A stretch of 64,000 bases of DNA from Acidimicrobiaceae bacterium (GTDB lineage: Bacteria > Actinomycetota > Acidimicrobiia > Acidimicrobiales > Poriferisodalaceae): contig PBKA01000015.1 of the NCBI GenBank assembly GCA_002721305.1, positions 1 through 64,000 on the forward strand. The letters run 5' to 3'. The translations under genes and the position numbers were made by a program. Below, piece after piece: positions 53,347-57,713 of the stretch. Each line of letters begins with the position of its first letter. Within the stretch, counting starts at the first letter, position 1. A model generated the notes under the pieces. That model had not been told where the DNA came from. It saw only the letters and a program-made list of their open reading frames with translations, and made no database searches.

Positions 53347-55023
53347 TTAGACCGTGGTGGTGATCGATTGAAGACCCCGGGCCGCCTTGTGGCTCGAACG
53401 AGTGAGCGGCCCGGCTTCTACGTGTTGTATGCCGAGTTCGCGGGCGTGGCCGGCTAGGACTTCGAATGTTTTGGGATCCACCCATCGTTGGACTGGCAAG
53501 TGTTTGCTAGTTGGTCGGAGATATTGGCCTATTGTCACGATGCTGACACCAACAGCCGATAAGTCTCCTAGCGCGGAAACCAGTTCGTCGTCGGTTTCGC
53601 CTAGTCCTGTCATGATCCCTGATTTTGTTATGGAGCCGTGCCCGTGTGCCCGAGCCAATAGGGTGAGGCTTCGGGCGTAGCTGGAGTTGGTTCTGACGGC
53701 ACGTTGGAGTCTCGCGACGGTTTCTAGGTTGTGGTTGACCACGTCGGGCTGCGCTGCGAGCACTGCCTCTAAAGGGCTTGTTTTCCCTGCAAAGTCGGGA
53801 ATAAGAGTCTCGATCGTGGTGTGGGGGGTCTTGGCGCGGATTGCTTTCAAAGTTTCTACAAATCCGCCGGCGCCTCCGTCTTCTAGGTCGTCGCGGGCTA
53901 CCGCTGTGATGACGACGTGACTCAGACCCATTTTGACAATTGCTTCTGCGACTCGGTGCGGTTCTTCTTTGTCCAGGGGCTCGGGTTGTTGGGTATCTAC
54001 CAGACAGAAACCGCAGGCACGAGTGCAGCGGCTTCCGTTGATCATGAAGGTTGCGGTGCCCTCACCCCAGCATTCGTAAATGTTGGGGCATCCGGCTTCT
54101 TCGCACACCGTTGTTAGTTCGAGGTTGCGCAATGTTGACCGCACTCGTCGGTATCCGTCGTTGAGTTCGACGCGGGTTTTCATCCATTCGGGTTTTCGCT
54201 CCGTGATCGATAGTCCCTCTGAGAGACCTGTTGCATCAAGCCTTCGTTGTCGTCCTTTGGTCGGTTTACGATCTCGTAAAAGGACTTTTACTTCACCCCT
54301 TTGGGTGGTCGTTCCACTGTCGGGGGGTTGAAATGTGTCCACCTTCTTCGTGCGTTGCGGAAACGCAGTTACTGCTATATCAGATCCTTCGTTTCCCCAG
54401 GTCTCAATCGCTCTAGCGGATATTTTCTCGACGACTTCACGCATGGAGGCGTGTATGCCTTCGTTTCGTAAATTCGTGACTGATAGTTCCTTGATGCCGC
54501 ATGGCACTATGTGGTCGAACCATGACAGGTCTGTGGTGGCGTTAAGAGCGAAGCCATGCATGGTTCGACCTCGACTCAATCGGACCCCGATCGCCGCAAC
54601 TTTCCTTGGTCGTTTGCTGGTGGGGGCGACCCAGACGCCCGGGTATCGGGTCATTCGACCGCAGTTCTCGAGCCCTAGGTCGTTGAGTGCGTCAATAAGA
54701 ACTTGTTCGACCTGATGAACGTAGTCCCTAGTCTCAGCGAGTCCACCGCCTCTCCGACCGGGTAGCGACAACACTGGATAGCCGGTGACCTGTCCTGGTC
54801 CGTGGTAGGTGATGTCGCCGCCGCGGTTGGTCGACTCATAGGTGGCTCCCACTGTTGATGGGTCAATGAGAAGGTTCGAGAGGTCTGTATTGGGGCCGCC
54901 AGTGAAAACGTGTTGGTGCTCCATCAAGAGGAGGTGGTCGTCCTGGCTGGATTCGAAGAGTCGTTGCTGGAGGTCGCGCGCTTCTTGGTAATCAACGCGA
55001 CCCAACCATCGGACCCGAAGCAT
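53347..55023 (-). CDS. lipB-lipA: LipB-LipA fusion: octanoyltransferase + lipoyl synthase in one polypeptide
   Basis: 558 residues in one open frame. Residues 1-225 are LipB, which moves octanoyl from acyl carrier protein to target lysines; the catalytic pair is K141 (RKVAAIGVR) and C175 (IVPCGI). A basic linker of about 50 residues follows. Residues 280-558 are LipA, a radical-SAM enzyme that inserts two sulfurs. Its auxiliary cluster cysteines are C307, C312 and C318 (CEEAGCPNIYEC), the SAM-cluster cysteines C333, C337 and C340 (CTRACGFC), and the conserved RSS motif is at 542-544. Both halves have all the key residues, so a bifunctional lipoylation enzyme is likely. Dihydrolipoamide dehydrogenase is encoded 53 bases upstream in the same direction. 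Confidence 0.96.
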   Translation of the reverse strand: MLRVRWLGRVDYQEARDLQQRLFESSQDDHLLLMEHQHVFTGGPNTDLSNLLIDPSTVGATYESTNRGGDITYHGPGQVTGYPVLSLPGRRGGGLAETRDYVHQVEQVLIDALNDLGLENCGRMTRYPGVWVAPTSKRPRKVAAIGVRLSRGRTMHGFALNATTDLSWFDHIVPCGIKELSVTNLRNEGIHASMREVVEKISARAIETWGNEGSDIAVTAFPQRTKKVDTFQPPDSGTTTQRGEVKVLLRDRKPTKGRQRRLDATGLSEGLSITERKPEWMKTRVELNDGYRRVRSTLRNLELTTVCEEAGCPNIYECWGEGTATFMINGSRCTRACGFCLVDTQQPEPLDKEEPHRVAEAIVKMGLSHVVITAVARDDLEDGGAGGFVETLKAIRAKTPHTTIETLIPDFAGKTSPLEAVLAAQPDVVNHNLETVARLQRAVRTNSSYARSLTLLARAHGHGSITKSGIMTGLGETDDELVSALGDLSAVGVSIVTIGQYLRPTSKHLPVQRWVDPKTFEVLAGHARELGIQHVEAGPLTRSSHKAARGLQSITTTV

Positions 55024-55075: not shown

Positions 55076-56479
55076 TCATCCGTGGAGGGTCCGACCTGCC
55101 ATCTCCAGGACCGCTTCACCGAAGAGCTCTGAGAGCGTGGGGTGGGGTTGGATGAATTCGGCAATTTCATCGATTTCGATTTCCCAGTTGACGGCTAAAT
55201 AACCTTGGCTCAGCTGCTCTGTGGCTCGGGGGCCGATGAGATGGACTCCTAGTAGCTGACCTGCTGTTCCATCGGAGCGGCGCTCGGCGACGAGTTTGAC
55301 AATGCCCTCAGTTTCATTGTGAATTAGCGCTCGTGCATTTCCAGCGAATCGGTGTTGCGTTGTGACGACGTCGTATCCGGCATGGGTTGCTTGTTCTTCG
55401 GTCATGCCGGCGTACGCGATTTCGGGATGACAGTAGATTGCCCACGCAACCCTCGAATAATTGGTGGGCTTCGGATTTTCGCCCAATATGTCGCGAACGG
55501 CCACCATGGCTTCGGCGAATCCGACGTGTGCTAACTGGGGTGTCGAAATCACATCTCCTATGGCGTAGACACCTTCGCAGTTGGTTCGACAGAGTTCGTC
55601 AACCACCACGAATCCGTCATCGTCGAGTCTTATTGCAGTATCCGCTAACCCAAGGTGGTCGGTATAAGGTCTTCTTCCAACACAGACGATGACTTTTTCG
55701 ACGTCTAGTTCTGTCTCGTCGGTCAGATGAACGACGGTGCCTTCTTGGTGTGGGCTGTGTCTGTCCGCCGAAACGCCTGTGACCACATCGATGCCTCTCT
55801 TTTTGAAGGAGCGCTCTAGAGATTTCGCTATGTCGATGTCGGTTCCGGGAACCAGTCCTTCGGTTGCTTCCAAAATGGTGACCTGTGTTCCCAAGTCGGA
55901 CAGCATGGAGGCAAATTCACAGCCGGTGGCTCCTCCACCAATGATGGCGGCACTGTTGGGCAAGCTTTTGAGTTCTAGCAATTCGTCAGACGCCAAAACG
56001 GTGTCGCCGTCAATGTCGAAACCCGGAAGGGTTTTGGGTTGAGAACCGGCGGCTACCACGACAAAGTTGCCAGTCAAGAGTTGTTTATTTCCGTCATTGA
56101 AAGTGACTTCAACATTTCGATCACCGGCCAACTTTCCGGTTCCCTCAAATACGTTGATGTCTTTGCTAGCTACTAGATGGGTTATCCCTTTGAATAGTCG
56201 GTCAACGACGGCCTGTTTTCGGGCTTGGGCTGCGGAGAAGTCGACAACTGGTTCATTGGTGTTGATCCCAAATTCTCCGGCTTGTGTAACGGTGCGGTGG
56301 ACTGCAGCTGTCTCTAAGAGTTCCTTAGCGGGTATGCATCCTCGATGCAGGCAAGTGCCACCAATGCGGTCCCGTTCGATCAGAGCGACATTTAGGTCCG
56401 ATGCCACTGCGGTAAAAGCGGCGGCGTAGCCGGCGGGTCCTCCCCCGATGACAACTAGATCAAAGTCGTTGGAAGTCAT
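55076..56479 (-). CDS. lpd: Dihydrolipoyl dehydrogenase (E3)
   Basis: 467 residues. FAD-binding GGGPAGYAAA, the redox disulfide C43/C48 in GGTCLHRGCIP, NAD-binding IGGGATGCEFA and the C-terminal catalytic HPTLSELFGE are all present, so this is a true E3. It regenerates the oxidised lipoyl group of 2-oxoacid dehydrogenase complexes and the glycine cleavage system. Placement just upstream of the LipB-LipA fusion makes a lipoate unit. A tiny membrane-peptide gene lies 66 bases before it on the same strand. Confidence 0.95.
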   Translation of the reverse strand: MTSNDFDLVVIGGGPAGYAAAFTAVASDLNVALIERDRIGGTCLHRGCIPAKELLETAAVHRTVTQAGEFGINTNEPVVDFSAAQARKQAVVDRLFKGITHLVASKDINVFEGTGKLAGDRNVEVTFNDGNKQLLTGNFVVVAAGSQPKTLPGFDIDGDTVLASDELLELKSLPNSAAIIGGGATGCEFASMLSDLGTQVTILEATEGLVPGTDIDIAKSLERSFKKRGIDVVTGVSADRHSPHQEGTVVHLTDETELDVEKVIVCVGRRPYTDHLGLADTAIRLDDDGFVVVDELCRTNCEGVYAIGDVISTPQLAHVGFAEAMVAVRDILGENPKPTNYSRVAWAIYCHPEIAYAGMTEEQATHAGYDVVTTQHRFAGNARALIHNETEGIVKLVAERRSDGTAGQLLGVHLIGPRATEQLSQGYLAVNWEIEIDEIAEFIQPHPTLSELFGEAVLEMAGRTLHG

Positions 56480-56545: not shown

Positions 56546-56635
56546 CTATACAGCGATGAGGACTTGCGCGGCGAACGCGACGAGTATGGCGAGGCCAGTT
56601 ACCAGTGCTGTGATGATCAGTGCTCTTGTGCTCAC
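56546..56635 (-). CDS. 29-residue single-span membrane peptide
   Basis: A GTG-started short frame with stop TAG at 56546-56548 encodes MSTRALIITALVTGLAILVA and then FAAQVLIAV, a basic start followed by one complete transmembrane segment. It lies upstream of lpd on the same strand and is divergent from the thioredoxin-like gene. No strong ribosome binding site is seen (GGACG well upstream). The all-hydrophobic composition and clean frame suggest a real small protein; its role is unknown. Confidence 0.5.
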   Translation of the reverse strand: MSTRALIITALVTGLAILVAFAAQVLIAV

Positions 56636-56685
56636 TGGATCTGAATTTAGCGTCCAACGACGTGCTGGCCCATAGCCTTTGGTCT

Positions 56686-57243
56686 GTGGGATCCGCATTT
56701 AGACAGAGCGCAATCGTTTTGGGGTTAGTTCTTCTGGTTTCTTGCGATACCGGTGGGGTTTCTGAAGGTTCCGTTGGTTCGACTATCCCGAGCACCACCA
56801 CCAGAACAGAGGTAACTATTGAGAATCCTGTCGCGGTGGAAAAGCTCGATGCGGGAGTGCCGGCGGCGCTCACCGTGTTGGAGCGTTCCACTGTTTTCGG
56901 AGAATTATTTGATCCGTCCTCCTTGGCCGGACACGAGGTCCTTTTGTGGTTTTGGGCGCCTTGGTGAGGGGCTTGCAACAATGAGGCAGCGGCGGTCGCC
57001 GCTCTAAGTAATCAGAGTGACATAGCTGTGGTCGGGTTGCCTGGGCGAGATGATTCCTCCGCTCATTTGGCTTTTGTTGAGCGTCACAACTTAGGTCATC
57101 TAGTTCACATTGAAGATACCGACGGAACACTTTGGAGCTATTTCGGAGTTTCTTCTCAGCCGACTTGGATATTCTTTCGCGCCGATGGCGCTGTGACTCG
57201 GGGACGGGGGGCTTTGTCCGCCGTGTTATTTGAATCTGGTTGA
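56686..57243 (+). CDS. Thioredoxin-fold lipoprotein (MPT53/TlpA-like) with in-frame TGA, probable selenocysteine
   Basis: 185 residues if the TGA at 56965-56967 is read through. The GTG start at 56686 gives a textbook lipoprotein signal ending in the lipobox LVSC (C20). The thioredoxin domain starts about residue 70 (FGELFDPSSLAGHEVLLWFWAPW). The active site reads W, TGA (94), G, A, C97, where relatives have W-C-x-x-C. After the TGA the frame stays open with helix and strand blocks (IAVVGLPGRDDSSAHL, DGTLWSYFGVSSQPTWIFF; cis-proline P159). A TGA exactly at the nucleophilic cysteine, plus a downstream hairpin, indicates selenocysteine insertion. A TGC-to-TGA nonsense change or a read error is the alternative. 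Expected role: thiol-disulfide exchange on exported proteins. Confidence 0.82.
56988..57003 (+). promoter_or_regulatory. Candidate bacterial SECIS hairpin
   Basis: AGCGGC (56988-56993), loop GGTC (56994-56997), GCCGCT (56998-57003): a perfect 6-bp stem with a GGUC loop, 26 bases after the TGA. The apical loop of the E. coli fdhF SECIS is also GGUC, and bacterial SECIS loops lie roughly 16-37 bases downstream of the UGA. No extended lower stem is obvious. Because the stem is made of alanine codons (GCA GCG GCG GTC GCC GCT), a hairpin could also form here by chance. Confidence 0.6.
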
Positions 57244-57278: not shown

Positions 57279-57713
57279 ATGGCTCGTCGTGTCGTAAGTT
57301 GTGAACGACTCATATCTGCTGACGCTTCTGTGATCTTTGATGTGTTGACGGATCCGTCTCAACACGCGGCAATCGACGGATCGAACACAGTTCAAGGCCA
57401 TGTCGGTAAACAAGAGCGCTTATCGCTGGGAAGTACTTTCGCGATGAGGATGCGGTTAGGTGTTCCGTATCGCATCAAGAGCCGGGTGTTCGAGTTCGCG
57501 GAGAATCGGTTAATTGCATGGGGGCATTTTGGCGGGCACCGCTGGAGGTATGAGTTGCGGCCTGTCGAGGAGCGTACGTTGGTTGTGGAGTCTTTTGATT
57601 GGTCTACCTCGCGTGTGCCTCTGCTAATCGAACTGGTCGGCTACCCGCGCCGACATAAGAAGAACATGGAGCGCACGTTGTTCAGACTTGCCGGCTTGGT
57701 CGAGTCAAGTTGA
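57279..57713 (+). CDS. SRPBCC-fold (START/polyketide cyclase-like) protein
   Basis: 144 residues. Starts RRVVSCERLISADASVIFDVLTDPSQHAAIDGS, the usual beginning of the helix-grip ligand-binding fold, and ends in the long C-terminal helix (RRHKKNMERTLFRLAGLVES). Such proteins bind hydrophobic ligands or act as small hydrolases/cyclases; the ligand cannot be predicted. It begins 36 bases after the thioredoxin-like gene on the same strand and is followed at once by a lipoprotein gene. Confidence 0.83.
   Translation: MARRVVSCERLISADASVIFDVLTDPSQHAAIDGSNTVQGHVGKQERLSLGSTFAMRMRLGVPYRIKSRVFEFAENRLIAWGHFGGHRWRYELRPVEERTLVVESFDWSTSRVPLLIELVGYPRRHKKNMERTLFRLAGLVESS

Follow-up and report, generated by a model that had tools for sequence, protein, structure and literature searches.

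The DNA analysed here, a stretch of 64,000 nucleotides referred to below as the window, is part of contig C15 of a metagenome-assembled genome (MAG) of an Acidimicrobiales bacterium, whose assembly of 1.94 Mb is 89% complete. The features at the locus and around it are the following:

53347-55023, minus strand: lipB (octanoyltransferase) and lipA (lipoyl synthase), apparently fused in a 558-aa ORF, named by eye
55076-56479, minus strand: dihydrolipoamide dehydrogenase-like gene (lpd), a conserved neighbour
56546-56698, minus strand: divergent 50-aa membrane ORF, matched beside the selenoprotein gene in every relative checked
56686-57243, plus strand: probable selenoprotein gene for an MPT53/TlpA-like lipoprotein of 185 aa, with a GTG start and a TGA stop at 57241-57243 (translation, homology, AlphaFold2 fold)
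56686-56745, plus strand: signal peptide and lipobox LVSC, the codon of the predicted lipidated Cys20 being 56743-56745
56965-56967, plus strand: in-frame TGA, probable Sec94, at the N-terminal nucleophile position of W-C-x-x-C (translation, alignment, scored loci)
56974-56976, plus strand: Cys97, the resolving cysteine of UGAC, invariant in the alignment
56988-57003, plus strand: hairpin of the SECIS type, AGCGGC-GGUC-GCCGCU, with its loop 26 nt downstream of the UGA and -10.0 kcal/mol when folded alone
57160-57162, plus strand: cis-Pro159 of the thioredoxin fold, in SSQPTW (translation, alignment)
57279-57713, plus strand: SRPBCC-like protein gene, a conserved downstream neighbour, named by eye

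When the internal TGA is read as a residue, positions 56686-57243 give 185 residues with one internal and one terminal TGA, and the active site reads ...LLWFWAPW-U94-GAC97-N...; without read-through, the mechanical listing of open reading frames shows a stretch up to 56967 only, the ORF stopping after residue 93. The preliminary description of this DNA had recognised a single frame broken only by this TGA, which it placed at the first Cys of a W-C-x-x-C motif and followed by 91 further codons including the cis-proline block (SSQP159TW), and translation confirmed it on each of these points. Among 22 aligned relatives, WFWAPW, the Sec/Cys column, C97, N98, E100, P159 and W161 are invariant. The signal peptide ends in L-V-S-C20, a lipobox closing on Cys as in bacterial lipoproteins, and Cys20 is kept in all the aligned relatives that reach that column, which supports the earlier prediction of an exported, lipid-anchored protein; from these sequence features we infer export and lipid anchoring at Cys20.

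The order lipBA, lpd, small ORF, selenoprotein gene, SRPBCC-like gene, a lipoprotein gene and an RNase H-like gene is kept in nearly all the relatives checked (neighbour names by eye), and the lipoprotein gene is unmatched in the more distant ones. The start of the 50-aa ORF overlaps the GTG start of the selenoprotein gene by 13 nt, an overlap also found in some relatives. The 558-aa lipB-lipA ORF is matched as a single unit in close relatives too.

The encoded protein matches the Pfam families Redoxin, AhpC-TSA and Thioredoxin above cut-off, and the nearest solved sequences by phmmer are MPT53/DsbE (1lu4, 4e-22) and DsbF (3ios, 1.5e-21) of Mycobacterium tuberculosis. An AlphaFold2 model computed from the family alignment has a mean pLDDT of 78, exceeding 90 over most of the domain, and is a thioredoxin fold whose top PDB matches are 3ios (TM 0.80, on target) and 1lu4 (0.77), followed by ResA and CcmG. 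Fold, active-site motif, cis-Pro and sequence homology thus place the protein with the TlpA-like MPT53/DsbE-DsbF group; it falls outside TIGR00385 dsbE (CcmG), with 45.2 bits against a curated cut-off of 123, and a search of a phage collection returned remote DsbE matches only.

A selenoprotein calls for SelA, SelB, SelD and tRNA-Sec in one genome, the last with a UCA anticodon, as the preliminary description had pointed out, and all four were found together here. A search of the genome with the full selA model located selA at C26:16068-17183, with selB directly after it, from C26:17208 onwards, and selD lies at C22:5911-6852. The tRNA-Sec is above the Rfam gathering score, with the anticodon loop CUUCAAA (UCA), and its halves lie on facing contig ends (L001 and L002; G000 C1:1-88, minus strand, and C26:1-83, plus strand). 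Since these ends share about 81 nt (overlap counted by eye), they represent one selC gene cut by the assembly; the cut also accounts for the failure of ARAGORN to detect it, whereas Rfam recovers both halves. The model Se-cys_synth_N (PF12390) had no match in the genome, which reflects a weak model rather than absence of the gene, since the full selA model matched. selD (L020:1531) is itself a selenoprotein gene, with an in-frame TGA within HGAG-U-ACK and a SECIS-like hairpin of loop CGUGC 32 nt after its UGA.

A homologue at E ≤ 1e-8 was found in 65 of 99 relatives, the named close ones being Acidimicrobiales MAGs such as MedAcidi-G3. The alignment allowed 160 loci to be scored at the TGA column, with TGA in 96, TGC in 47, TGT in 17 and any other state in none; in terms of distinct homologues, 82 TGA forms and 65 Cys forms were compared. 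An in-frame UGA thus stands where homologues have Cys, as in known selenoproteins, and the alternation of TGA and Cys that had been anticipated for this column is exactly what the homologues display, with none of the random frame decay that would have spoken against it. The same TGA occurs in independent assemblies, single-contig genomes such as G044 included, at protein identities of 40-80%, and the 3' part of the frame is conserved among relatives. The interruption is therefore not due to chance, because frame and TGA column recur in 96 of 160 loci with a conserved protein downstream.

The two forms are distributed in relation to the Sec machinery. The close homologues that make up the window's own family all have TGA, and other classes in the phylum sample carry it too (18 of 20 fetched loci). 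Cys forms were found in Acidimicrobiales without selA and in some that possess it, as well as in Nonomuraea, Streptomyces, Mycolicibacterium and others. Every one of the 54 relatives carrying the TGA form also has selA, and none of the 22 selA-negative relatives has the TGA form (Fisher 7e-10, a value that ignores relatedness). The Sec/Cys label requires about 8 changes on a 127-protein tree, at least 5 of them forced by well-supported branches. Set against other Acidimicrobiales, three relatives that lack selA (G040, G043 and G082) have the Cys form, which suggests that Sec is exchanged for Cys when the Sec machinery is lost.

The hairpin downstream of the TGA conforms to the rules published for bacterial SECIS elements, namely a loop of 3-9 nt, a stem of 4-16 bp, G in the first two loop positions, a distance of 16-37 nt from the UGA and an MFE ≤ -7.5 (PMC13188914): the loop is GGUC, the stem has 6 bp, the spacing is 26 nt and the energy -10.0 kcal/mol. 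The single-sequence folding energy of the window hairpin is unremarkable (z 0.11) and hence uninformative; the evidence for the hairpin is comparative. In the deduplicated set, the GGUC loop at this proximal place is found in 59 of 64 TGA forms vs 9 of 63 Cys forms, and a 4-bp stem in 51 of 64 vs 2 of 63. In a set of 35 diverse sequences, 37 two-sided changes occur in the helix; its covariation is 0.459, compared to 0.095 ± 0.023 after shuffling, and it peaks at register 0 and drops at every slid register.

Most of the remaining TGA forms have another hairpin 8 nt further on, with a spacing of 34 nt and a loop that is mostly AGGUN or AGUUN; in 20 sequences this distal hairpin shows compensatory pairs, with 118 of 120 cells paired and at most 112 in shuffles. 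Sec loci with the distal hairpin and no proximal GGUC are L133, L146, L165, L166, L170-L173, L178, L199, L202, L204, L206, L208 and L210-L215. One or the other register is present in 77 of 82 TGA forms and in 2 of 65 Cys forms, the two registers having been chosen after inspection of the sequences, with a scan across all offsets as control. When all hairpins of at least 5 bp are counted regardless of position, TGA and Cys forms are poorly separated (p 0.05); only the fixed registers separate them well. On the tree, proximal and distal types swap at least 2 times, and G044 and G054 each hold both, so that a single SelB would need to work with either type. When the genome was searched with the SECIS model, no convincing second member appeared, the next match (E 0.12) covering the 3' part of the model only; the model is therefore specific to the MPT53-like selenoprotein family. 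Taken together, we think it reasonably probable that Sec-containing MPT53-like lipoproteins form a clade extending across the phylum, with a SECIS element in two registers, proximal (GGUC, 26 nt) and distal (mostly AG[G/U]UN, 34 nt), and that the element moved by 8 nt at least 2 times; as one genome can hold both types, one SelB would be required to read the two loops.

The Sec genes, the TGA/Cys column and the TGA-specific hairpin strongly support the original proposal that the TGA encodes selenocysteine in place of the nucleophilic Cys, and we consider it very highly probable, judging from sequence, that the gene is a genuine selenoprotein gene in which Sec would be inserted at 56965-56967; this confidence covers the selenoprotein claim and not the direction of electron flow. 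SelA and SelD would make Sec-tRNA-Sec, which SelB would bring to the UGA while attached to the hairpin with the GGUC loop at 56988-57003, so that translation would run on to the 185-residue product. The latter would be exported, anchored to lipid at Cys20 and folded as a thioredoxin of the MPT53/DsbE/ResA type with the active site U94-G-A-C97. Outside the membrane, Sec94 would attack disulfides of the substrate, or other oxidised groups, and Cys97 would resolve the selenosulfide; somewhat more probably than not, the enzyme would be a rapid reductase that a membrane carrier of the CcdA/DsbD type recharges.

The direction of electron flow, the partner and the substrate are inferred. Three residues after Cys97, the invariant Glu (E100) takes the place of Glu80 in ResA (C74/C77/E80 from PDB titles). 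The genome has a CcdA-like membrane gene at C16:64244, which scores 26.4, just below the Pfam cut-off of 27.1, and lies beside a Cys-type TlpA and not beside the selenoprotein gene. VKOR, a possible oxidising partner, was not found in the genome, an absence that means little in a MAG of this completeness. These three observations favour a reductase, and a Sec nucleophile in general favours reduction. The same selenoprotein could instead be an oxidant, donating disulfides in the manner of M. tuberculosis DsbE and DsbF: these closest solved relatives sustain oxidative folding of hirudin and do not reduce insulin (PMC3853704), and it is the in vitro behaviour of these nearest characterised relatives that keeps our preference moderate. 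Against the invariant Glu, the CcdA-like carrier and the chemistry of Sec, the oxidant appears possible but the less probable of the two, and a reductase recharged by a CcdA/DsbD-type carrier is the reading to which we incline.

The other explanations concern the TGA itself. Translation would terminate at UGA if Sec-tRNA were scarce, and the gene might thus yield mostly the truncated 93-residue product in selenium-poor conditions, with the UGA acting as a selenium-sensing switch; this appears very improbable, since the short form would lack most of the thioredoxin fold in the AlphaFold2 model and no conserved regulatory feature was seen. Still less credit can be given to a TGA that is reassigned or read through non-specifically, for instance as Trp: the frame would be open under any code in which TGA is a sense codon, but TGA terminates 28 of the 53 mechanical ORFs of at least 150 aa in the window, in line with the earlier remark that it is otherwise an ordinary stop here, the column alternates with Cys alone, and the TGA form tracks selA and carries a hairpin missing from the Cys forms, so that code reassignment was rejected. 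An error of sequencing or assembly was likewise rejected as hardly credible, as was a pseudogene carrying one nonsense mutation, even though TGA lies one base away from both TGC and TGT and the DNA comes from a MAG, since the TGA column is conserved in independent assemblies together with the 3' part of the frame and knows only the two states TGA and Cys. Selenocysteine at this codon remains the preferred reading.

Standard gene callers will end the gene at the TGA, so that marine Acidimicrobiia likely have a conserved redox enzyme at the cell surface that is overlooked or appears in annotations as a fragment. With about 80 SECIS variants from nature, Cys homologues to serve as controls and two registers within one protein family, SelB-SECIS recognition and the exchange of Cys and Sec become directly testable. 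The finding also suggests that an envelope redox function of free-living actinobacteria depends on selenium.

No paper on the Acidimicrobiia version of the protein was found by text searches of the open-access literature. Thiol-disulfide isomerase-like (UxxC) and Trx-like 1 Sec proteins have been described in Sargasso Sea and GOS data and in a 2026 catalogue (PMC1088965, PMC2398784, PMC13188914). The protein resembles the Sargasso Sea/GOS selenoproteins (cd02966 or COG0526), here likened by description, as a marine bacterial UxxC protein of the broad TlpA-like/thioredoxin class; the text searched contains no description of the lipoprotein clade, its genomic context or its host group. Sec-containing UxxC proteins of the TlpA-like type are therefore already known, and only the clade, its spread over Actinomycetota and the two SECIS registers look new. 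The ResA-like WAxxUGC protein of NF041054 (WAxxUGC_long) also contains Sec; unlike the present protein, it has a UGC motif and is longer, and the score obtained here was 24.7 bits against a curated cut-off of 300. With the ResA/CcmG/TlpA reductases the protein shares the fold and the invariant Glu three residues past the second Cys, whereas those enzymes have a Cys nucleophile and dedicated cytochrome c or Cu partners. The closest likeness is to MPT53/DsbE (1lu4) and DsbF (3ios) of M. tuberculosis, in fold, in domain length, in the WFWxPW-x-xx-C site and as an exported thiol-disulfide oxidoreductase; it differs from them in having UGA where they have the nucleophilic Cys, and they are reported to be oxidants (PMC3853704).
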